This document shows, piece after piece, positions 8,808-19,268 of a stretch of DNA of 53,046 bases. The position numbers were made by a program, and so were the translations under genes. The notes beneath the pieces were generated by a model, which did not search any database, had not been told where the DNA came from, and was given only the letters and a program-made list of their open reading frames with translations. Each line of letters begins with the position of its first letter. Position 1 is the first letter of the stretch. Source of the stretch: Bordetella parapertussis (GTDB lineage Bacteria; Pseudomonadota; Gammaproteobacteria; Burkholderiales; Burkholderiaceae_B); contig CAMDEF010000025.1 in the NCBI GenBank assembly GCA_945895265.1, positions 1 through 53,046 on the forward strand, read 5' to 3'.

Positions 8808-9428
8808 TCAAGTTTGCCCAGTCATGCCCTCAAACGTCGTGTGAATCACCAGGTCGACGATATCTTGGTTTGAGAAGGCTCCTCCCATTTGCAAGAAATC
8901 TGCAACTGGGTCGCAGGAGCGAGCATAAATTGTGTACAAAATCACTTCGCCAGGCAGCGAGGCAGACAAGCTGCGGTCGGCCTGAGCCTGTTCGATCCAT
9001 TCGCCGAGTTGCTCGGTTAGCGAGCTTAAGCGATCGATATAAGGTTGGTAGGCCAAGAGCGCTTGTTGAGTGCTTGAGCGCGTTGAGGGCAACAAGGGCA
9101 TGGTGCCACCCAAGTGCTCGGTAACGGCCCAGCGCACCACCGCCTTGAGCTTGTCGAGCGGCGTGTGATGCGCGGGCAAGCTATGTGCAAGCGTCAGTGC
9201 GCTCTCGAGCAGGCGAGTCATCGAGGCTGCAGCCAACTGCTCTTTCGATTGAAAATGTTTGTACAGGCTTGCTTTGGCAATCCCGACATCAGCCGCAACC
9301 TCATCCATGGTCATGAGGTCAAACCCTTTTTGCGCCAATAAGCGATTGACCGCATCCAGAATCGCGTTTTCACGAAATTGCAGTTGCTGCTGCTTGAACG
9401 ACAGTTTGACCGGAGCAGTTTCAATCAT
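8808..9428 (-). CDS. TetR/AcrR-family transcriptional regulator, divergent from lipid operon
   Basis: A 206-residue TetR-family regulator. The N-terminal helix-turn-helix is clear: ILDAVNRLLAQKGFDLMTMDEVAADVGIAKASLYKHFQSKEQL, residues about 22-64, with the recognition helix at IAKASLYKHF. The C-terminal two thirds are a helical ligand-binding and dimer domain with no assignable ligand. It is transcribed away from the nine-gene lipid operon that starts 136 bp to the right, the usual arrangement for a local repressor. A palindrome at 9524-9540 in the shared intergenic region is a candidate operator. That it controls the operon is inference from position. Confidence 0.9.
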   Translation of the reverse strand: MIETAPVKLSFKQQQLQFRENAILDAVNRLLAQKGFDLMTMDEVAADVGIAKASLYKHFQSKEQLAAASMTRLLESALTLAHSLPAHHTPLDKLKAVVRWAVTEHLGGTMPLLPSTRSSTQQALLAYQPYIDRLSSLTEQLGEWIEQAQADRSLSASLPGEVILYTIYARSCDPVADFLQMGGAFSNQDIVDLVIHTTFEGMTGQT

Positions 9429-9523
9429 TCGGATTCGCCAAGGGAGAAGGTCAATACGGGTTGAATTATTTCTATGCAGTATATTTTATTACCGAATAGT
9501 ATTTTTATGTACTTTATGGTGTA

Positions 9524-9564: not shown

Positions 9565-10092
9565 ATGCCTGCTAGCGCGACCTTTGATGTTGTTTCTTCG
9601 CTGTTTCAGTCGCAAGACCTGCCGCCGCAGGTACTGGCGCAAACGGGAGGCGACTGGAAACTGTGTGGTCAGGGTGTTTTTAGCTGGAGCGTCTTCAAGT
9701 TCTATCGCATCCGGTTGTTCAGCCGTACGGGTCACTTTGAAGTCACGCAACCCCACCTCTTAGACTTATCGTATTTACGTAAGTTATCCGCGCAACAAAT
9801 TATTACGATTTCCCTGCAAGAAATTCAGCGACTGGCGGCACCGACACCAGAACAGTTGGCAAGTTGGCGCAGCGCACTCGAGGCAATCGTGCCTGATGTC
9901 GGGCTCGGTGATCGTTTGTTGGGCTGGTTCATCCCGGCTGAAGGGGTACATTTTTTTTCGGCGAACGCTGAACTAGGTGCAATCCTTGACACTGCTTTTG
10001 CGAGCGCGTTTGGTGCAATTTGGCTTGATCCCAAGACGCAACGGCCGGCACTGCGTCTGGAGCTTCTTGGTTTGCAGGGCGAAACGGCATGA
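9565..10092 (+). CDS. Chalcone-isomerase-like protein, no signal peptide
   Basis: A 175-residue member of the bacterial chalcone isomerase-like family, first gene of the lipid operon. Family features are the central GQGVFSWSVFKFYRIRLFS strand pair, the SYLRKLSAQQIITISLQEIQRL region and the C-terminal AFGAIWLDPKTQRPALRLELLG, which closely matches the end of the paralogue at 13448. It has no N-terminal signal peptide, unlike that paralogue. I chose the ATG at 9565; a TTG at 9559 is in frame. Bacterial members probably bind fatty acids or other small ligands rather than isomerise chalcone, but this is not proven. The stop overlaps the next start (ATGA). Confidence 0.75.
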   Translation: MPASATFDVVSSLFQSQDLPPQVLAQTGGDWKLCGQGVFSWSVFKFYRIRLFSRTGHFEVTQPHLLDLSYLRKLSAQQIITISLQEIQRLAAPTPEQLASWRSALEAIVPDVGLGDRLLGWFIPAEGVHFFSANAELGAILDTAFASAFGAIWLDPKTQRPALRLELLGLQGETA

Positions 10093-11369
10093 CCAACCCT
10101 CGTCGTCGTATTGCTGTCGTTGGGTCGGGTATCGCTGGGCTGTCTACTGCGTGGTTGTTAGCAGAGCAACATCAAGTCACGCTCTTTGAAGCGGGCGATT
10201 ATTTTGGCGGGCATTCTAATACCGTGGACGTGACGCTTGAGGGCGCGACGCATCCGGTGGATACCGGATTTTTGGTCCATAACGATCTGACTTATCCTAA
10301 TCTCGTGCCGCTCTTGGCGCATCTGGGTGTTCCTGTGCACGCCAGCGATATGTCGTTTGGTGTGTCGATTCATGAGCCAGATATCGAATGGGCAGGTACA
10401 AATCTTCGCTCTGTATTTGCGCAACCCGGTAATCTTTTTCGCCCAAAATTTATCGGAATGTTGCGTGATATTTTGCGTTTTAACCGTGAGGCTGAACGCT
10501 ATCTGCTTGAGGTTCGCCGCACCCCCGCGACGCTGGGTGAGTTGCTGGCGCGTGAGAAGTTCGGTCAAGCGATGCAAGAGTGGTATCTCTTGCCGATGGC
10601 TGCTGCGATTTGGTCGGCCTCTATCAGCGCGGTGCTTGATTTTTCGGCTGCAACGTTCCTGTCCTTTTGTCTAAATCACCGGTTGTTGCAAATCGACCAA
10701 CGTCCGCAATGGAAGACCATTCTCGGGGGCTCGAGGTTGTATGTGCAGGCGATGCTCAAACGACTCACTGATGCACGCTTGGCCTGTCCGGTGACTCGCG
10801 TACAACGCACAGCAGCGTGTGTGGTGATCAGCTCGCCCAGAGGCGACGAGAACTTTGATGCCGTCGTGATGGCTTGTCATGCACCGACCACGCTGGCGTT
10901 GCTTGAGCCTACGCCCAACGAGCACCGAGTGCTCTCGGCGATTCGCTATCAGGCCAACGAAGCCATCTTGCATACCGATGTGGCATTGCTACCCAAACGC
11001 CAAAAGGTGTGGTCTGCCTGGAACTACCTGGCCGCGGGTGGGCAGGGGGCAGAGCGCCCCGTTGCGGTGAGCTATTTGATCAATCAACTGCAGCCCTTAC
11101 CTTTTAAAACACCGGTCATCGTGACTCTCAATCCACATCAGCCACCTGACCCAGCCAAGGTATTGGCTCGATTCTCGTACGAACATCCGGTGCTTGATCA
11201 GGCTGCAAGTTTGGCTCAGTTAGAACTGCCTGGCCTTCAAGGTCAGCAGAGAACTTGGTTTTGCGGTGCGTGGACCGGTTTTGGTTTTCATGAGGATGGT
11301 TTGAAATCTGCATTGCGCGTGGCGCGTGCGTTTGGTGTGACACCTCCTTGGCAGGCGACGTATGAATAA
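10089..11369 (+). CDS. FAD-dependent amine-oxidase-like oxidoreductase
   Basis: A 426-residue flavoprotein of the protoporphyrinogen oxidase/phytoene desaturase type. The N-terminal dinucleotide fold is IAVVGSGIAGLSTAWLLAE with the acidic ribose-binding residue in VTLFEAGDYFGGHSNTVDV. The C-terminal FAD-binding end is WFCGAWTGFGFHEDGLKSAL, the usual substrate-oxidase finish. In other bacteria this family sits next to DUF1365 and a CFA-synthase-like methyltransferase, and in alphaproteobacteria related genes take part in furan fatty acid formation. Oxidation or desaturation of a lipid acyl chain is therefore a reasonable inference, not a demonstrated role here. It starts inside the previous stop codon (ATGA) and overlaps the next gene by 8 bp. 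Confidence 0.85.
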   Translation: MTNPRRRIAVVGSGIAGLSTAWLLAEQHQVTLFEAGDYFGGHSNTVDVTLEGATHPVDTGFLVHNDLTYPNLVPLLAHLGVPVHASDMSFGVSIHEPDIEWAGTNLRSVFAQPGNLFRPKFIGMLRDILRFNREAERYLLEVRRTPATLGELLAREKFGQAMQEWYLLPMAAAIWSASISAVLDFSAATFLSFCLNHRLLQIDQRPQWKTILGGSRLYVQAMLKRLTDARLACPVTRVQRTAACVVISSPRGDENFDAVVMACHAPTTLALLEPTPNEHRVLSAIRYQANEAILHTDVALLPKRQKVWSAWNYLAAGGQGAERPVAVSYLINQLQPLPFKTPVIVTLNPHQPPDPAKVLARFSYEHPVLDQAASLAQLELPGLQGQQRTWFCGAWTGFGFHEDGLKSALRVARAFGVTPPWQATYE

Positions 11370-12174
11370 CACCTCCGCCAAGCCTGAGTCACTTTTGTTG
11401 TGTCGTGGGCGTGTCATGCACGCGCGCCTGCGTCCGTTTGTGCACCGGTTTGTTTACCGAGTATTTTGTTTGCGTCTGCGGTTGGATCAACCTGCTGTGT
11501 TAGCGCGCAGTAACAGTTGGTTATTTGGGATTGAGCATGCACGGCCTATCAGTTTTTGGGCGCGTGATCACGGTGCACGCGACGGTACAGATTTGTTGCA
11601 ATGGCTCACGGGTGTGCTAGATGCGAGTGAGGTGCATTTTGAACGGGGTGCCGTGTGGTTGCAGTGTTTTCCTCGCGTCTTTGGGTATGTGTTTAACCCA
11701 GTGAGTTTTTGGCTCATTTACGACAAAGAGGGGACGCTCAGGGCGATGCTTGCCGAAGTGAACAACACCTTCGGGCAGCGCCATCAATATCTTTTGACCG
11801 CGCCAAACCTAGAACCGATTCAGGCTAGCACCAAACTGAGTTGTAAAAAGGTATTTCATGTGTCTCCGTTTTGCGCTGTGCAAGGGCGTTATCAGTTTGA
11901 ACTTGACGAGCGTGCGGGGCAACCGCGGCTAGCAATTGATTATTTTGATTCAGAGCAAGAGCAGCAGCCCTTGTTACGCACCGCGATTGTTGTGCAGCCC
12001 CAGCCCTTGCGTACTCGTGCACTGCTGCTCGCCTTACTCGGCATGCCGATGATGACATTCGGGGTGATGTTGCGTATACACATTCAGGCATTCAAACTGT
12101 GGCGTCGGGGTGCAAAGTACCGTACAAAACCACCATTGCCCACAGACGAAGTGACACACAATTTCAAGGTGTAA
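11362..12174 (+). CDS. DUF1365 family protein
   Basis: A 270-residue DUF1365 protein. It shows the family start LLCRGRVMHARLRPFVHRFVYRVF, then HGARDG, then the hallmark FPRVFGYVFNPVSFWLIYD and AEVNNTFGQRHQYLL, and a basic C-terminal segment with one hydrophobic stretch (ALLLALLGMPMMTFGVMLRIH). The function is unknown; the family almost always lies between an amine-oxidase-like flavoprotein and a CFA-synthase-like enzyme, as here. The start overlaps the preceding gene's end by 8 bp, which implies coupled translation. After its stop come 80 bases with imperfect repeats before the methyltransferase. Confidence 0.9.
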   Translation: MNNTSAKPESLLLCRGRVMHARLRPFVHRFVYRVFCLRLRLDQPAVLARSNSWLFGIEHARPISFWARDHGARDGTDLLQWLTGVLDASEVHFERGAVWLQCFPRVFGYVFNPVSFWLIYDKEGTLRAMLAEVNNTFGQRHQYLLTAPNLEPIQASTKLSCKKVFHVSPFCAVQGRYQFELDERAGQPRLAIDYFDSEQEQQPLLRTAIVVQPQPLRTRALLLALLGMPMMTFGVMLRIHIQAFKLWRRGAKYRTKPPLPTDEVTHNFKV

Positions 12175-12176
12175 AC

Positions 12177-12275
12177 GTGAATGAGCAAGAGCAACAGACG
12201 TGTCTAGGTTTCGCAAATGAGTACAAAAGAACAACAGTTTTTTAAGGTTGACAAATGAGTCTGCAAGAACAACAA
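12177..12275 (+). repeat. Three imperfect copies of the methyltransferase start region
   Basis: Similar start-like sequences lie at 12181 (atgagcaagagcaacag), 12217 (atgagtacaaaagaacaac) and 12255 (atgagtctgcaagaacaac), spaced 36 and 38 bp; the last is the real start of the methyltransferase. The middle copy opens a 13-codon frame, MSTKEQQFFKVDK, whose TGA overlaps the methyltransferase ATG. It resembles the enzyme's own start MSLQEQQ. This could be a decayed duplication or a translated leader; I cannot say which. Confidence 0.5.
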
Positions 12276-13469
12276 CTTTCGCTTGCTTCAACGCGTTTGC
12301 GTTGGTCGGGTCGCTTGTTGCTTAAACTTTTGAAAAAAATTACGCACGGCTCGCTGATACTCATCGACCCCCAGGGTTCGAGTATCGAGCTCGGTCAGCC
12401 GGGCGCCTCGCCGCACGCTTCATTGCATATTTACGACTGGCGGGCCGCCGGTTTGATTCTTCGTCAAGGTGATGTTGGCTTTGCCGAAAGTTTGCGCCGT
12501 GGGTGGGTTGATTCGCCCAATTTATTGGCCTTGTTTACGTTGGCGTTGCGTAACGAGCAAGTCTCTGAGGCGGTTGATGGACATTGGTGGGCCTTGCTGC
12601 TCAAAAAGCTATCGCACTGGGTACTCAAAGATAATAGTCGCAAGGGCAGCCGCCGCAATATCGTGAGCCATTACGATGTGGGCAATGCTTTTTATCGACT
12701 TTGGTTAGATCCTTCAATGACGTATTCGGCAGGTTGGTTCGAGGGCGATTTGACGCGGTCTTTGCAAGTGGCACAAGACGCAAAGTACGATCGAATCCTG
12801 AACCAATTGCAGGCTACACCAGGGCAGACTGTGCTTGAAGTGGGTTGTGGTTGGGGTGGGTTTGCAGAGCGCGTGGCTCAGCGTGGTTTAAACGTGGTTG
12901 GCATCACCTTGTCCGATGCACAGCTTGAGTGGGCTACGCAACGCCTGCATCAGGCGGGGCTGAGTCAGCAGGTGTCGTTACGCCTACAAGACTACCGCGA
13001 CGTACCTGAGCAATACGATCATATCGTTTCAATCGAGATGTTCGAAGCCGTGGGTTTACTGCACTGGCCAAGCTACTTTCAAATGCTGAGGCGTTGCCTC
13101 AAGCTCGGCGGGCGAGCGGTGGTACAGACAATCGATATTCAAGATCAACGTTTCGATACGTACCGACGCGGTACCGATTTTATTCAGCAATTTATTTTTC
13201 CGGGTGGCATGTTGCCTAGTCCGTCACGTTTTGAAAAAGAGTGTGAAGCTGCGGGCTTGCGTGTGCACGAGACCTTATCCTTCGGCCTTGACTACGCAGA
13301 GACTCTCAAGCGTTGGACTCAGCAATTTGAAGCGTCACTGTCTAGCATTCGCGAGCAGGGCTATGACGATGCGTTTATTCGGATCTGGCGTATGTACCTA
13401 GCTTATTGCGAAGCAGGATTTAGGGAACAACGAACAGATGTTAAACAATGGACACTATGCGCAAAATAA
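12255..13469 (+). CDS. Cyclopropane-fatty-acid-synthase-like SAM methyltransferase
   Basis: A 404-residue protein of the Cfa/mycolic acid cyclopropane synthase family. SAM motif I is VLEVGCGWGG (residues 193-202), preceded by SHYDVGNAFYRLWLD; IFPGGMLPS and the FGLDYAETL segment are also family features. By eye against remembered Escherichia coli Cfa, the acidic residue E264 (IEMFEAVG) and Tyr347 are kept. The Cys of the YSC motif is Ala159 (TYSAGW) and the His of LHTIG is Gln291 (VVQTID), so the bicarbonate site looks altered. Family members methylate cis double bonds of phospholipid acyl chains at the membrane surface. The gene is central to the operon, and its end overlaps the next gene by 22 bp. 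Confidence 0.88.
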   Translation: MSLQEQQLSLASTRLRWSGRLLLKLLKKITHGSLILIDPQGSSIELGQPGASPHASLHIYDWRAAGLILRQGDVGFAESLRRGWVDSPNLLALFTLALRNEQVSEAVDGHWWALLLKKLSHWVLKDNSRKGSRRNIVSHYDVGNAFYRLWLDPSMTYSAGWFEGDLTRSLQVAQDAKYDRILNQLQATPGQTVLEVGCGWGGFAERVAQRGLNVVGITLSDAQLEWATQRLHQAGLSQQVSLRLQDYRDVPEQYDHIVSIEMFEAVGLLHWPSYFQMLRRCLKLGGRAVVQTIDIQDQRFDTYRRGTDFIQQFIFPGGMLPSPSRFEKECEAAGLRVHETLSFGLDYAETLKRWTQQFEASLSSIREQGYDDAFIRIWRMYLAYCEAGFREQRTDVKQWTLCAK

Positions 13470-13966
13470 TCTGTAGTTTGTTCATGCTTGCTGCCCTTTG
13501 CGCGCAAGCCGTGGCGAGTGGCTCGTCGCCGTTTTTACCCAGCGCCCAATTAGTGGGGCAGGGGCTGTTCACTCGGTTTGGCTTTTCAGTTTACGAGGCT
13601 CGTTTATGGGCACCTCTAGGGCTTTACAGCCTGAGCGAGCCCTTTGCACTGTCCTTGACGTACTCACGTGAAATCGCGGGTGAGCGTTTGGTGCAGGCCT
13701 CGTTTGATGAGATGCAAAAGCTTCAGGCGCCGATCACCCAAAATACGCAATGGCGCGAGGCTCTTGAGCGCGTCTTACCCAACGTGGTCCCTGGCGACAC
13801 AATTACTGGCGTGTATCAACCAGGGCAAGGGGCAACATTTTTTCATCGTGAACGGCAAACCGGGCAAATTAGTGACGATTTAGCGAGGCATTTTTTTGCG
13901 ATTTGGCTTGACCCTCGTACAAGCGAGCCAAGTTTGCGTCAAGCCTTACTAGGCACTAAACGGTGA
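13448..13966 (+). CDS. Chalcone-isomerase-like protein, exported
   Basis: A 172-residue paralogue of the protein at 9565, here with a secretion signal (MRKIICSLFMLAALCAQAVASG, cleavage near residue 24), so it probably acts in the periplasm. Shared family features are GQGLFTRFGFSVYEARLWAP, the SYSREI-like strand before a long helix (FDEMQKLQAP), the VPGDTITGVYQPGQGATFF segment and the C-terminal FFAIWLDPRTSEPSLRQALLG. The ATG at 13448 lies inside the methyltransferase gene; 13457 is an alternative that shortens the signal by three residues. The stop overlaps the GTG start of the MFS gene. Lipid or small-ligand binding is inferred from the neighbourhood only. Confidence 0.78.
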   Translation: MDTMRKIICSLFMLAALCAQAVASGSSPFLPSAQLVGQGLFTRFGFSVYEARLWAPLGLYSLSEPFALSLTYSREIAGERLVQASFDEMQKLQAPITQNTQWREALERVLPNVVPGDTITGVYQPGQGATFFHRERQTGQISDDLARHFFAIWLDPRTSEPSLRQALLGTKR

Positions 13967-15234
13967 ATAAGTCAGGCCTGCTTGGCTATGCGGCGCTAAG
14001 TCTGCCGCTTGCCATGTCGATGATGCCCGTGTACATGATTTCGCCTAAGTTTTACGGCGATGTACTCGGGCTTGAGTTAGCAGCTTTAGGTGCGGTGTTG
14101 TTTGCCACGCGGCTGCTTGACGCCGTGCAAGACCCTTGGCTTGGACGGTTGGTCGATGGTTTACAGGGTAGAAAGGGCGCCTGGGCCTGGCTGATGTTCG
14201 TTGCGGCTTTAGTGTTGGGAATTGGTTTTGTTCTGCTGTTTACGCCGCCTGCGTGGTCGCATACCGGTTTGTTGGCTTGGCTGGCAGGTTCTCTGGTGTT
14301 GGTCTACGGCGCGCATAGTTTGTTAAGCGTTTGTTACCTGACTTGGGGCGCGCGACTGACCGATGATCTGGACGGCAGAGCCCGTGTCACAGCATGGCGC
14401 GAAGCCTTTGGTCTAGTCGGGGTCATCACGGCATCAGTCTTACCCGCGATCTGGGTGGCGCAGTATGGCGCACGAGTGGGGTATCAGTGGTTTGCCTGGT
14501 TGTTTGCCGCGCTGTTGTTACTTTTTCTTGGATGTACGCTGCGTTGGTCGCCCGCACCGCAAGTGGCACCTAAACAGTCGCTGCAGCATTGGCGCGAGGC
14601 CTTGGCACCACCCGCCGTGCGTCGGGTGCTGTGGTTTTATTTGTTCAACGCCATCTCGGTTGCGGTGCCAGCAACCTTGGTGTTGTTCTTTATTGCTGAC
14701 GTTGTGCAGTCGCCCGAACAGACTGGGCTCTTTCTAGGGCTCTACTTCTTAGCGGGTATGTTGGCCTTACCTGTTTGGGTGATGCTTGCAGATCGTATCG
14801 GTAAAGCGCCCGCTTGGCTGATCGGCAGTGGCCTCGCTGCGGTGTCATTGTTGTGCGCCTATTGGGTGGGTGCTGGCGATATCTTTTTTTATGGCTTGGT
14901 CTGCGTGATAGCAGGTGCTGGGCTCGGCGCTGATGTCGCGTTGCCGCCCGCCATGCTGGCCGATGCGATACCGCCTACCCATCGTCAAAGCACGGGGCTG
15001 TACTTTGGGATTTGGGTGTTGCTCGGTAAGTTAGCACTGGCGTTGGCTGCAGGGCTGGCGTTGCCTGCGTTGCAATGGTTTGATTATCAACCCGGGCGTA
15101 CCGACTCGGTGTTATCCCTGAGCCTGCTGTATACGTTGTTGCCCTTGTTTTTTAAGCTGTTGGCCATGGGTGTGTTGTTCTTTAGCACCTTCAAATATTT
15201 TTTTACGCGAGCCCACGCTCGTAAGGAGTCGTAA
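13963..15234 (+). CDS. MFS transporter (sugar:cation symporter-like clade)
   Basis: A 423-residue protein with 12 predicted membrane helices. The segment TRLLDAVQDPWLGRLVDGLQGRKGAW between helices 2 and 3 resembles the DAxxDPxxGxxxDR signature of the GPH-type MFS clade, and GLYFGIWVLLGKLALALAAGLALP is the matching late helix. Homologues of this transporter occur beside CFA-synthase-like genes in other proteobacteria, so a lipid-related rather than sugar substrate is possible; the substrate is unknown. The start is GTG, overlapping the previous TGA by 4 bp. Its TAA shares its last base with the next ATG (TAATG), so translation is coupled on both sides. Confidence 0.85.
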   Translation: MNKSGLLGYAALSLPLAMSMMPVYMISPKFYGDVLGLELAALGAVLFATRLLDAVQDPWLGRLVDGLQGRKGAWAWLMFVAALVLGIGFVLLFTPPAWSHTGLLAWLAGSLVLVYGAHSLLSVCYLTWGARLTDDLDGRARVTAWREAFGLVGVITASVLPAIWVAQYGARVGYQWFAWLFAALLLLFLGCTLRWSPAPQVAPKQSLQHWREALAPPAVRRVLWFYLFNAISVAVPATLVLFFIADVVQSPEQTGLFLGLYFLAGMLALPVWVMLADRIGKAPAWLIGSGLAAVSLLCAYWVGAGDIFFYGLVCVIAGAGLGADVALPPAMLADAIPPTHRQSTGLYFGIWVLLGKLALALAAGLALPALQWFDYQPGRTDSVLSLSLLYTLLPLFFKLLAMGVLFFSTFKYFFTRAHARKES

Positions 15235-15785
15235 TGAAATTGAAAACTTGGATCGCTTCGGCGACTGCCGCGTTCTTGACCGCCTGCGGAAGTGTTGACG
15301 TTGCACACTATGCGGCAGAAAAGCCAACCCTCGAACTGCCAACTTTTTTTAATGGCACGATTGATGCCTGGGGCATCTTTCAAAAGCGTACCGGTGAAGT
15401 GGCACGCCGCTTCAGTGTCGAAATTCAAGCAAGCTGGGTAAGCCCCAATGAGGGGACGTTAGACGAGCGCTTTACGTATTCTGATGGCGAAAAGCAACGA
15501 CGTGTTTGGACACTCAAACGTCAGGCCGACGGTAGCTGGCAAGGGACTGCCGATGATGTCGTCGGTGTGGCAACCGGACATGTATCGGGTAATGCCTTAC
15601 GCTGGACCTACGTGTTACGTTTGCCAGTTGACGGTAAAGAGTACTTGGTGAACTTTGATGACTGGATGTGGCAGATGGATGAGTTCTCGATGATGAATCG
15701 TTCAACGATGTCAAAGTTTGGGATTGATCTGGGCGAAGTGACTCTGTTTTTTCGGAAGCGCAACGCCCCTACGCCTGCAAAATGA
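15234..15785 (+). CDS. DUF3833 family lipoprotein
   Basis: A 183-residue predicted lipoprotein. Residues 1-18 are a lipoprotein signal ending in the lipobox LTAC, giving a lipid-modified Cys at position 18. The mature part matches DUF3833: FFNGTIDAWGIFQKRTGEVARRF near the start, WTLKRQADGSWQGTADDVVG in the middle, and NFDDWMWQMDEFSMMNRSTMSKFGIDLGEVTLFFRK at the end. The fold is probably a lipocalin-like beta barrel, which would suit a lipid carrier at the inner or outer membrane, but this is inferred. The start overlaps the MFS stop (TAATG) and its own TGA overlaps the next ATG. Confidence 0.88.
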   Translation: MKLKTWIASATAAFLTACGSVDVAHYAAEKPTLELPTFFNGTIDAWGIFQKRTGEVARRFSVEIQASWVSPNEGTLDERFTYSDGEKQRRVWTLKRQADGSWQGTADDVVGVATGHVSGNALRWTYVLRLPVDGKEYLVNFDDWMWQMDEFSMMNRSTMSKFGIDLGEVTLFFRKRNAPTPAK

Positions 15786-16603
15786 AAATAACTAGTCATC
15801 AATCACGCTCCTCGGCTTCATTTATGCTGAAACCACTCAACACACCGATCACCTCGTGGGTGGGCAAGCGGGTCTGGCTCGTTGGGGCCTCGAGTGGCAT
15901 TGGCGCGGCCCTGGCGCAAGCTCTATTGCAGGCTGGCGCAATTGTGGCGTTGTCGGCACGACGCGCCGACCAACTCGCCATAGTTGCTGCGCCTTATTCA
16001 AATGCAAGCGTGGTACCTTTTGATGTGACAGATACTGAGGCTTGGCCAACGGCGCTTACGAACGTTTTAGAACGCTTAGGTCAGATCGACTTGGTCATAC
16101 TGGGTGCTGCACGCTATGACCCCACGCATAGTTGGCAAATTGATATAGAGCAGGCCGAGAAAAGCTTTGATCTGAACGTGGTCAGTGTCTATCGCGGCTT
16201 GTCAGTGATCGTGCCTCAGTTGTTGGCACAAGGCCATGGTGGGGTGTCTCTGATCGCCAGTATCTCTGGCTACACCGGTTTGCCGCGCGCGCTGATTTAT
16301 GGGGCGACCAAAGCAGCTTTGCAAAACTTGTGCGAGACGCTTTATTTTGAATTAGCGCCAAAAGGACTTGCGGTGTATTTAATCAACCCTGGTTTTGTGC
16401 AAACCCCTATGACTTCAGCCAATGATTTTGAAATGCCCGGTTTAATGACGCCTGAAGCTGCCGCGCAGGCAATCATGCTTGGGTTTGAGCGTGGCCACTT
16501 TGAGATTCGATTTCCAAAGGCCTTTTCGCTTGTACTTCGAGTCATTAGCATGTTGCCCGATCGCTTGCGCTTTGCTCTTTTACATAAGACAACAGGAATG
16601 TGA
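15782..16603 (+). CDS. Short-chain dehydrogenase/reductase (SDR)
   Basis: A 273-residue classical SDR. The cofactor motif is GASSGIG (VWLVGASSGIGAALAQ, about residues 32-47). The acidic FDVTD strand end, Ser in LIASISGYTG and the YGATK active site with Tyr and Lys complete the catalytic set. ARR after the second strand may favour NADPH. The ATG at 15782 overlaps the lipoprotein stop; a second ATG at 15824 would remove a 14-residue polar stretch not usual in SDRs, so the start is uncertain. The likely role is oxidation or reduction of a keto or hydroxyl group on the operon's product; the substrate is unknown. Confidence 0.87.
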   Translation: MKITSHQSRSSASFMLKPLNTPITSWVGKRVWLVGASSGIGAALAQALLQAGAIVALSARRADQLAIVAAPYSNASVVPFDVTDTEAWPTALTNVLERLGQIDLVILGAARYDPTHSWQIDIEQAEKSFDLNVVSVYRGLSVIVPQLLAQGHGGVSLIASISGYTGLPRALIYGATKAALQNLCETLYFELAPKGLAVYLINPGFVQTPMTSANDFEMPGLMTPEAAAQAIMLGFERGHFEIRFPKAFSLVLRVISMLPDRLRFALLHKTTGM

Positions 16604-17037
16604 TGCAGTCTTTTCATGCGCGCTTTGACGAGTTGGCTGAGTGGTTTGAAACCCTGACCCCTGCATCGTTACAGAGTATTGCTTCGGTATATGCCCCGAG
16701 CGCCACGTTTCGCGATCCGTTTAATGATTTGCGCGGAGTGACAAGCGTGCGTCAGGTGTACCAGCACATGTTCGAGACACTTGTTGAACCACGCTTCGTG
16801 ATCACAAGCAAGCTGATTGAATCTGGCAATGCCTTTATGACTTGGCGGTTTCTGTTTACGCTGCGCGGCAAGGCCTATGTGATCGAGGGGGGCACACATT
16901 TCGTCCTCGACGAACAGGGGTTGATTGCGATGCATCGCGATTACTGGGATGCTTCGCAAGAACTCTACGAAAAAATCCCCATTTTAGGTGCGGTACTGCG
17001 AGGCTTAAGGCGAAAATTATCCATTGCTAACGCCTAG
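16603..17037 (+). CDS. SnoaL/NTF2-like protein
   Basis: A 144-residue single-domain protein of the NTF2-like superfamily, last gene of the lipid operon. Typical elements are the N-terminal helix ARFDELAEWFETLTPASLQSIASVYAPSATFRDPFNDLRG, the VRQVYQHMFETL helix, and the strands ending in GGTHFVLDEQGLIAMHRDYWDASQELYEKIPILG. Such conical folds often act as small isomerases, hydratases or ligand carriers. The ATG at 16603 shares bases with the SDR stop (TGATG); a GTG at 16600 is in frame. A strong hairpin terminator follows 15 bp after the stop, which closes the operon. Confidence 0.82.
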   Translation: MQSFHARFDELAEWFETLTPASLQSIASVYAPSATFRDPFNDLRGVTSVRQVYQHMFETLVEPRFVITSKLIESGNAFMTWRFLFTLRGKAYVIEGGTHFVLDEQGLIAMHRDYWDASQELYEKIPILGAVLRGLRRKLSIANA

Positions 17038-17051
17038 CGCAGCGCTGAGCA

Positions 17052-17088
17052 GTCGTAAAAAAAGCCCCTCAGGGACTTTTTTTACGAC
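17052..17088. terminator. Bidirectional rho-independent terminator
   Basis: A 13-bp perfect stem (gtcgtaaaaaaag pairing with ctttttttacgac) encloses a short CCTCAGG core. The run of A on the left and T on the right lets it terminate transcripts from both sides. It lies between the end of the lipid operon (17037) and the end of the leftward symporter gene (17139). Confidence 0.9.
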
Positions 17089-17138: not shown

Positions 17139-19268
17139 CTATCTGACAGAGTCACCGCGCAGCGTTGGGTAACGCACATGGTCAACCAACTCTTGAATGT
17201 CTTTACGTGGCGCTGGGGTAAGCAAGCTGACGATGATAATCAGCGCGAAACCCAGCGGTACACCAAAGACACCGGCAGAAATTGGCAGGATGCCGTACCA
17301 CAACTCGATTGGCGAGGTCACGCCAAAGACGCCGCGCAGCCAGGGCTGTGTGGTGACCATGTAGTAGAACGTGACACTCAAACCACCGGACATACCAACG
17401 ATTGCTCCCCATTTGTTTGCACGCTTCCAGAAAATACCCAGAGTGAGTGCCGGGAAAAACGCTGCAGCCGCAAATGAGAACGCCGCAGACACTAAGAACA
17501 AAATATCCGCCGGTTTTTGCGCTGCCACATAGGCTGCAGCTAACGCGACGACTAGCAACAAGATTTTTGAAATCAAGACCCGACGCGCAGTGGGTGCGTT
17601 GGGATTGATCATCTTGTAGTAGAGGTCGTGCGACAAAGCGTTTGCGATCGTCAGCAGCAAGCCGTCTGCCGTTGAGAGCGCAGCAGCTAAACCGCCAGCA
17701 GCAACCATACCTGAGACCACGTAGGGCAAGCCACCAATCTCTGGTGTGGCCAACACCACGATATCGCCACCGATACGGATTTCACCTAATTGGAGAATGC
17801 CGTCTTTATTAATATCAATAATTGACAACAGGTTAGGGTCGACAGTACTCCACTGCGCGATCCAGGCGGGCAGCTTGTCAAACGGCGTGCCCACTAAGAC
17901 ATGGAACATTTCATACTTGACCAGAACGGCGAGCGCCGGTGCGGTGAAGTACAGCAAGAAAATGAAAAACAACGACCAGGTCACAGACTCGCGCGCTTGT
18001 TTGACTGAAGGCGTTGTGTAATAACGCATCAGAATGTGCGGTAAAGCCGCCGTACCAACCATCAAGCAAAAGATCAAAGCCAAGAAGTTTCGACGCGAAG
18101 TATCGAACGCTGTTTTGGCTTTTTCATCGCCGTTCGGGTCGCCTGCGAATTGATTGGCATGCCGCGGCATACCACCTAGAGGCGCTGTACGAGCTGCGTT
18201 TGCCGCTTTATCTCTGGTGTACTGGGCTTTCGCGGCGGCCTCGTTGGCTGGAAGTGCTGCCAAGGCTTTTGCTGCGGCGTCTTGCTGTGCTTTAGGCGCG
18301 TTGGCCGACTTTAAATCAGCAACAGCTTTTTCTGCTGCAGCCTTGTCGGCCGCCATTGCGGCGGGCACATTTTTAAGTTTCGCGTCGGCATCATCGGCAC
18401 GTTTTTTAAACGCAGCGATCACTTCAAGCTCTTTAGGGTCTTTCAGCAGTTGTGCTTCTTTTGCTGTGACCTTCTCAAGCTGGTAGCCGTAGATCGCCTG
18501 CGGGATTGGATTGCCGGTTTGTTTGACTGAGAGCCAAACCACAGGAATCATGTAGGCGATGATCAGGATGATGTACTGTGCAACTTGAGTCCAGGTCACG
18601 GCACGCATACCGCCCAAGAACGAACAAACCAGAATACCGCCCAATCCCAAGAAGATACCAATTTCAAAAGGCACGCCAGACAAGCGTGTGGTGATGAGGC
18701 CCACGCCATAGATCTGGGCCACAACATAGGTAAATGAGCACAAAATGGCGGCAATAATACCAAGCAATCTTGGCAGGTTGCCGTCGTAGCGCTCGCCTAA
18801 GAAGTCAGGGATGGTGAATTGCCCAAACTTACGCAGGTAGGGTGCTAAAAACAATGCAACCAAACAATAGCCGCCGGTCCAGCCCATCACGAAGGCTAGG
18901 CCACTATAGCCGGTCAAATACAACGTACCCGCCATACCAATAAATGATGCAGCTGACATCCAGTCGGCCCCAGTCGCCATGCCGTTATACAAGGCTGGTA
19001 CTCGGCGACCTGCAACGTAGTATTCAGCGGCGTCATTGGTGCGACTCATGACGCCAATGCCTGCATAGAGCAAGACTGTGGCTGCTAAAAAGATGTAACC
19101 GATCCAGGCACGGGTCAGCCCCATCTGTTCAGCAACAGCCAGCACACACACGAAGGCAATAAAGCCACCGGTGTACCAGGTATAAACTTTATTCAGTTGT
19201 TTTTTGAACGCTGAGTTGGTGGTATTTGACGAAAACATACCACCCTCGTTAGGTGTCATTCCGGCCAT
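17139..19268 (-). CDS. Sodium:solute symporter large subunit with Ala/Lys-rich cytoplasmic or periplasmic insert
   Basis: A 709-residue SSS-family transporter. Membrane segments include AEYYVAGRRVPALYNGMATGADWMSAASFIGMAG and the conserved GGLAAALSTADGLLLTIANALSHDLYY, the family sodium-site signature. It is coupled to a DUF4212 small subunit (1 bp gap), the pair known as the VC_2705-type symporter, thought to take up short carboxylates such as acetate. Between about residues 275 and 375 there is a long hydrophilic stretch rich in Ala, Lys and Asp (AAEKAVADLKSA, AAAKALAALPAN, AAKAQYTRDKA), followed by RRNFLALIF. Whether this insert is usual for the clade I cannot check. The start MAGMTP is close to the preceding stop and needs coupling. 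Confidence 0.88.
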   Translation of the reverse strand: MAGMTPNEGGMFSSNTTNSAFKKQLNKVYTWYTGGFIAFVCVLAVAEQMGLTRAWIGYIFLAATVLLYAGIGVMSRTNDAAEYYVAGRRVPALYNGMATGADWMSAASFIGMAGTLYLTGYSGLAFVMGWTGGYCLVALFLAPYLRKFGQFTIPDFLGERYDGNLPRLLGIIAAILCSFTYVVAQIYGVGLITTRLSGVPFEIGIFLGLGGILVCSFLGGMRAVTWTQVAQYIILIIAYMIPVVWLSVKQTGNPIPQAIYGYQLEKVTAKEAQLLKDPKELEVIAAFKKRADDADAKLKNVPAAMAADKAAAEKAVADLKSANAPKAQQDAAAKALAALPANEAAAKAQYTRDKAANAARTAPLGGMPRHANQFAGDPNGDEKAKTAFDTSRRNFLALIFCLMVGTAALPHILMRYYTTPSVKQARESVTWSLFFIFLLYFTAPALAVLVKYEMFHVLVGTPFDKLPAWIAQWSTVDPNLLSIIDINKDGILQLGEIRIGGDIVVLATPEIGGLPYVVSGMVAAGGLAAALSTADGLLLTIANALSHDLYYKMINPNAPTARRVLISKILLLVVALAAAYVAAQKPADILFLVSAAFSFAAAAFFPALTLGIFWKRANKWGAIVGMSGGLSVTFYYMVTTQPWLRGVFGVTSPIELWYGILPISAGVFGVPLGFALIIIVSLLTPAPRKDIQELVDHVRYPTLRGDSVR

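Follow-up and report, generated by a model that had tools for sequence, protein, structure and literature searches.

Organization of the locus

The 53,046-nucleotide stretch of Bordetella parapertussis DNA considered here (contig CAMDEF010000025.1; "the window") carries, at 9565–17037, a compact operon of nine open reading frames (ORFs) on the plus strand, which is very probably a furan fatty acid operon under the control of a TetR-family regulator. The leading gene, C1 (9565–10092), encodes a chalcone-isomerase-like protein without a signal peptide. It is followed by a flavoprotein resembling the fatty acyl desaturase UfaD (10089–11369; Amino_oxidase), whose downstream neighbour is a DUF1365 protein resembling the furan-forming oxygenase UfaO (11362–12174; DUF1365, 248.9 bits), and by a methyltransferase resembling UfaM, which uses S-adenosylmethionine (SAM) (12255–13469; CMAS, 282.6 bits). 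The remaining genes encode C5, a chalcone-isomerase-like protein with a signal peptide (13448–13966), an MFS_2 transporter (13963–15234; 229.9 bits), a DUF3833 lipoprotein (15234–15785; LTAC motif assigned by eye), a short-chain dehydrogenase/reductase (SDR; 15782–16603; adh_short, 129.4 bits, and synteny), and a SnoaL-like protein of the NTF2 fold (16600–17037, or from an ATG at 16603; SnoaL_2, 50.2 bits). The regulator gene is divergent (8808–9428, minus strand; TetR_N, 56.4 bits).

A first-pass annotation, made by a model from the letters and their ORFs, had described nine overlapping genes with one gap between a divergent TetR gene and a strong terminator. The same ORFs, regulator and terminator are recovered, and the protein families that it listed are matched in Pfam above the curated cut-offs, Chalcone_3 twice. 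Seven of the eight junctions are overlaps of 4, 8, 22, 4, 1, 4 and 4 bp, the 22-bp overlap shrinking to 13 if C5 starts at its second ATG (13457), and the remaining one is an 80-bp gap between the UfaO-like and UfaM-like genes. These overlaps suggest that the nine genes are translationally coupled. By eye, the start region of UfaM (ATGAG...AACAACAG-like) seems to recur as two degenerate copies within the gap itself (12175–12254).

The core genes and the furan fatty acid pathway

Lemke et al. (2020; PMC7380195) demonstrated three steps: methylation of vaccenoyl chains by UfaM, desaturation of the methylated product by UfaD, and furan formation by the DUF1365 protein UfaO, with O2 as the oxygen source. 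In Rhodopseudomonas palustris the three genes are RPA2571-2570-2569, in the order D-O-M, and in Rhodobacter sphaeroides UfaD and UfaO head the run RSP_1091-1087, while UfaM is encoded elsewhere, as RSP_2144; the three genes of these species suffice for the furan fatty acid (PMC7380195). In Halomonas sp. YLGW01, ufaD, ufaO and ufaM are consecutive, and its UfaM gives a methylated chain in Escherichia coli (PMC12089945, 2025). Homologues of all three enzymes are also described in plants (PMC10940516); the same paper lists R. sphaeroides UfaD, UfaO and UfaM under Q3IYV7, Q3IYV8 and Q3J4I7.

In the window, the flavoprotein, the DUF1365 protein and the methyltransferase of the cyclopropane fatty acid synthase (CFAS) type are adjacent, and both their families and their order match UfaD-UfaO-UfaM, so that the core can be assigned with high confidence to this known pathway. 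UfaM would use SAM to methylate the vaccenoyl chains of membrane phospholipid at their cis double bond, UfaD would desaturate the methylated chain, and UfaO would insert an oxygen atom from O2 and thereby close the furan ring. This chemistry has been demonstrated in R. sphaeroides and R. palustris and is transferred to the window from family, order and active-site signature.

Some points weigh against this assignment. The link to the R. sphaeroides and R. palustris enzymes runs through other named Rhodobacteraceae, the published gene order and protein lengths, and identity to Cognatiyoonia is 42% for UfaD and 38% for UfaO. The E. coli strain carrying Halomonas UfaM also contained cyclic fatty acids (PMC12089945). 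Finally, R. sphaeroides strains with RSP1087, RSP1088 or RSP1089 deleted one at a time are reported to show no detectable change in the fatty acid profile (PMC7380195), which argues against an essential role of the accessory genes in synthesis and means that a fatty acid profile would be informative chiefly about D, O and M. Of the earlier proposal that the set makes and handles a modified acyl chain, the making (methylated, desaturated, furan) is well supported at the level of homology, whereas handling in the envelope finds no support in these deletions.

The operon might also stop at the methyl diene or make another oxygenated chain, with a different acyl substrate and with the SDR and the SnoaL-like protein as further enzymes. 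This is quite unlikely, since the two species named above need no more than D, O and M to make the furan fatty acid and the SDR RSP1087 is dispensable, as described in the same study (PMC7380195).

The methyltransferase

The family of the methyltransferase and its best sequence matches in the PDB, which are cyclopropane synthases (5z9o, E 2.5e-52; E. coli 6bqc, E 1.8e-46), would suit an operon for cyclopropane fatty acids, in which cyclopropane chains are the product of this enzyme and the other genes serve general housekeeping under stress. The bicarbonate ligands of E. coli CFAS are described as Glu239, His266 and Tyr317 (PMC11387697). When these positions are mapped through the alignment to 6bqc, in which chain numbers are one higher, Glu and Tyr are kept in the window as Glu264 and Tyr347, but His266 is replaced by Gln291, and the residue after the Glu is Ala265.

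The replacement is general among operonic copies, the window included, of which 98/98 have Gln at the His266 position and 97/98 have Ala after the Glu, whereas both positions are His in 14 of the 17 free-standing paralogues. The three free-standing Gln copies come from genomes whose operon has no UfaM (G116, G230, G238), and all three lie beside a photolyase gene. A further 26 copies near the operon divide into nine with Gln and 17 with His. The 17 free-standing rows, together with 13 GENOP rows that largely repeat operonic ones, were drawn from 20 genomes, as their 30 best loci. A tree was built from 79 rows (the window, 35 sampled operonic copies, all 26 near copies and the 17 free-standing ones); in it, one branch with support 99/96 separates all 48 Gln forms, that is, the window and 47 others, from the remaining rows.

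Because of the Gln in place of His266, the clade of 48 Gln forms and the position of the Gln exceptions beside photolyase, the window enzyme is probably a UfaM rather than a cyclopropane synthase. The absence of one ligand to the ion that presumably takes up the proton would fit a methyl-alkene product, and the enzyme may still form some rings. The Gln is proposed, from operonic context, as a candidate one-residue marker that separates UfaM from cyclopropane synthases. The cyclopropane explanation, for all its kept Glu239 and Tyr317 positions, is highly improbable given the Gln at the ligand position, the Ala after Glu239, the separation from the free-standing CFAS clade and the neighbouring UfaD and DUF1365 genes seen in most genomes. 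UfaM-like genes can carry cyclopropane-synthase names; one in a Cupriavidus record does so, which speaks for the cyclopropane explanation.

A third CFAS-like class occurs near furan operons, with His, His and Phe at the 240, 266 and 268 positions, and its 16 rows form their own clade (L092, L096, L100, L104–L109, L125, L132, L134, L138, L140, L161 and L182). Several of these loci also carry DUF1295, DUF2177 or a fatty acid desaturase.

Conservation of the gene set

Conservation was surveyed in 299 genomes of the phylum, 130 of which have a DUF1365 match (129 over the cut-off). From these, 114 regions in 37 families were fetched, and 16 were left out, two of them partial matches. DUF1365 is also present in 30/41 relatives. 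A survey of gene order and co-occurrence, as suggested by the first-pass annotation, finds the genes co-conserved: a flavoprotein lies within 9 kb of DUF1365 in 114/114 regions and directly upstream in 110/114, and D-O-M is contiguous in 90/114. Within the same distance are UfaM-type genes in 101 regions, SDR in 83, SnoaL in 51, DUF3833 in 47, chalcone-like genes in 33 and MFS in 29, and the gene set recurs far beyond chance. All of D, M, chalcone-like, MFS, DUF3833, SDR and SnoaL are found together in 10/124 regions, all of which belong to the taxonomic order of the window. ORFs were started by script at the farthest start codon, so that some assignments slipped (O is labelled in 116/125 loci); at L211 the leading chalcone-like gene was labelled C5, and no chalcone-like gene lies between M and MFS there. 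By this survey the pathway, known from experiment but seldom annotated, extends to many Pseudomonadota.

Among named genomes, the best 80 of 392 loci, which are alphaproteobacterial, mostly from Rhodobacteraceae, and do not include the R. sphaeroides and R. palustris records, have D adjoining O in all 80, the run D-O-MFS-DUF3833-SDR in 71 and an extracytoplasmic function (ECF) sigma factor and/or ChrR beside the set in 75.

Other neighbours within 8 kb, counted over 124 regions plus the window in clusters each named from one representative, are ChrR (60 loci), ECF sigma (54), photolyase (39), DUF2878 (32) and the MerR-B12 LitR type (22). The set is thus accompanied in many lineages by genes of the light or singlet oxygen response. 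The window belongs to none of these clusters, and in 34/114 regions no light or singlet oxygen response regulator was seen nearby.

Probable regulation by TetR and operator-like sites

Among the 21 same-genus genomes with DUF1365, the TetR orthologue is divergent, about 2 kb from DUF1365 and on the same contig in 18 (same-genus adjacency counts, here and below, were made by hand from coordinates). Of the other three, G007 is split over contigs, G021, a 65% complete genome, has no TetR match, and G024 has LitR instead. That last locus (L213) carries a MerR-B12 LitR gene in place of TetR and is without C1, and the regulator has seemingly been swapped within the genus. In four genomes (G002, G004, G008, G016) the aligned TetR stretch contains one in-frame stop, which may be a start-site effect. 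Across the wider survey, a TetR homologue lies within 9 kb in 4/114 regions, in three of them divergent beside D. Divergent TetR genes are also present in Cupriavidus pinatubonensis and in four further families of the window's taxonomic order (f4, f13, f29 and f64, at L091, L095, L139 and L149).

Two operator-like sites emerge between the regulator and C1 when 27 TetR-linked intergenic stretches are aligned. Site 2 (9490–9501, TACCGAATAGTA) has the consensus TACY-N4-RGT, which is present in 27/27 of these stretches and in 2/117 loci without TetR (1/22 LitR loci), the latter scanned over the 280 bp that surround the D start. In first-order resampled sequences the pattern occurs in a mean of 1.31 of 27 stretches, with a maximum of 5 in 300 resamplings. 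These figures are for a pattern picked after the alignment had been seen; several of these 27 differ little from one another, and the match at L139 lies outside the aligned columns. As a 12-mer alone the pattern is not rare in the window, with two matches where 0.79 are expected. Site 1 (9470–9481, TTCTATGCAGTA), 20 bp upstream of site 2, is a looser copy, with C3 and T4 each kept in 23/27, G10 in 25/27 and T11 in 24/27.

What is distinctive in the sequence of this operon is that TetR with paired, conserved operator-like sites replaces an adjacent ECF/ChrR or LitR, the LitR-type regulator being a third arrangement beside the set. TetR regulators usually act by repression. Here TetR would act from two tandem operators and respond to a signal, and the pair of regulator and operator is amenable to testing.

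An alternative is a signalling operon, in which UfaD and UfaO serve as a gate in stress regulation instead of protecting the membrane by their chemistry. In R. sphaeroides, singlet oxygen is reported to activate RpoE fully only when RSP_1090 and RSP_1091 are present (PMC3818230), and a partner in trans is conceivable, since Cupin_7 (the cupin family that includes, but is wider than, ChrR) occurs elsewhere in 21/25 same-genus genomes; control of the operon itself in trans is thereby also possible. This alternative is unlikely: no profile match to ECF, ChrR, LitR or photolyase is found anywhere in the window, no Cupin_7 match lies on the DUF1365-bearing contig in the same genus, and the enzymes have demonstrated chemistry (PMC7380195). 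ECF and ChrR are likewise absent within 8 kb at L211, L212 and L213. Signalling and furan synthesis could both hold, provided that the furan lipid acts as the signal.

The accessory genes

C1 exceeds the Chalcone_3 cut-off of 27 bits only just (29.1 bits), C5 more clearly (42.1 bits). They are identical in 57/154 aligned residues, and the Tyr, Tyr-x-Arg and Ile-Trp-Leu positions are kept in both groups. All 72 C1 relatives that were scored have an N-terminal hydropathy peak under 2.0, and a hydrophobic N-terminus is found in 0/72, whereas such an N-terminus is usual in C5, for which the window value is 2.74 and 28/37 ORFs pass the cut. C1 is also narrow in distribution, with 82 proteins at E<=1e-3 among 300 candidates drawn from 5.8 billion. 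Two chalcone matches flank DUF1365 in 15/21 same-genus genomes. By these sequence features C1 is a lineage-restricted, signal-less leader gene, distinctive of this operon.

Chalcone-isomerase folds are described as including plant fatty acid binders and fungal haem binders (PMC9996372), which makes ligand binding by C1 and C5 plausible by analogy. The DUF3833 protein is confidently modelled as a calycin-like barrel similar to nitrobindins and fatty-acid-binding proteins, the top score going to a designed transmembrane barrel, and the predicted fold makes lipid handling plausible. The UfaO model is confident too, without a clear structural relative.

In the preferred reading of a TetR-controlled furan fatty acid operon, C1, C5, the DUF3833 lipoprotein, MFS_2, the SDR and the SnoaL-like protein might bind, reduce or move furan lipids or oxidised fragments, and this is its weakest part. 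A stronger version makes them a dedicated branch of the pathway for lipid traffic and clean-up. The DUF3833 barrel and periplasmic C5 would take up furan lipids or oxidised fragments in the envelope, MFS_2 would move them, the SDR would reduce them, and cytoplasmic C1 would deliver them or present them to TetR, whose two operators would render the operon responsive to furan lipids and not to light. Such a branch is rather doubtful. The co-conserved genes nevertheless bear on the question of the role of furan fatty acids and the fate of their oxidation products.

Comparison with known operons

The first-pass annotation considered the set distinct from versions linked to sigma-E and ChrR. TetR beside the operon and the pair of chalcone-isomerase-like proteins, one with and one without a signal peptide, bear this out. 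The distinctness is limited by the occurrence of divergent TetR in the other lineages listed above, by core genes and order shared with R. palustris and Halomonas, and by the five of nine window genes (flavoprotein-DUF1365-MFS-DUF3833-SDR) that follow the order of RSP_1091-1087.

In R. palustris and Halomonas the same three enzymes form one run. The window has six genes more, and the published descriptions, on which the comparison rests, mention neither TetR nor a chalcone-like gene, as far as those accounts were available. In R. sphaeroides, UfaD and UfaO are followed by genes of 402, 186 and 245 amino acids (PMC7380195), and a published table matches RSP_1088 to a lipoprotein and RSP_1087 to an SDR. 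The arrangement from RSP_1093 to RSP_1087 with rpoE-chrR is described in PMC3818230 and PMC5507510. Unlike the window, this run as described is under ECF/ChrR control, comprises five genes only and has UfaM outside it. There, RSP_2144 is listed with RSP_2143 (phrB), like the three free-standing Gln copies beside photolyase. Named Rhodobacteraceae relatives show the same arrangement of ECF/ChrR with D-O-MFS-DUF3833-SDR; the MFS_2 homologue in these operons is 36% identical between the window and Cognatiyoonia, and the DUF3833 genes examined begin with a hydrophobic segment rather than the lipobox of the window.

Plasmid p2 of Cupriavidus pinatubonensis (NZ_CP080769.1) has a divergent TetR homologue (41% identical), the operator pattern and D-O-M-chalcone-MFS-DUF3833-SDR-NTF2 in the order of the window, at 38–57% identity gene by gene, but lacks the leading C1. 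It is annotated by domain names only, the UfaM-like gene as cyclopropane synthase family. The light-inducible pmlR1 region of Pseudomonas mendocina is described with ufaM beside an FAD-dependent oxidoreductase, an SDR and hypothetical genes, and differs in its LitR/LOV light control and in the phrB of its cluster (PMC9758184).

The operon is thus ordinary in kind and useful in detail. New at the sequence level are TetR with paired operator-like sites, the signal-less chalcone-like leader and the Gln as a candidate UfaM marker. None of the three was found in the literature among the matches listed; other papers may describe them.

Relatives and flanking features

The best named protein match of the DUF1365 protein is 86% identical, to 'Alcaligenaceae bacterium', and matches to Zwartia reach 66–67%; these matches place the organism close to the Alcaligenaceae. 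At the end of the operon, the terminator hairpin (17052–17088, plus strand) has a folding energy of −21.1 kcal/mol and a z of −5.48 against shuffles; the consensus terminator scan does not list it. A sodium:solute symporter gene (17139–19268, minus strand), with a long Ala/Lys-rich stretch in mid-protein, converges on this terminator.

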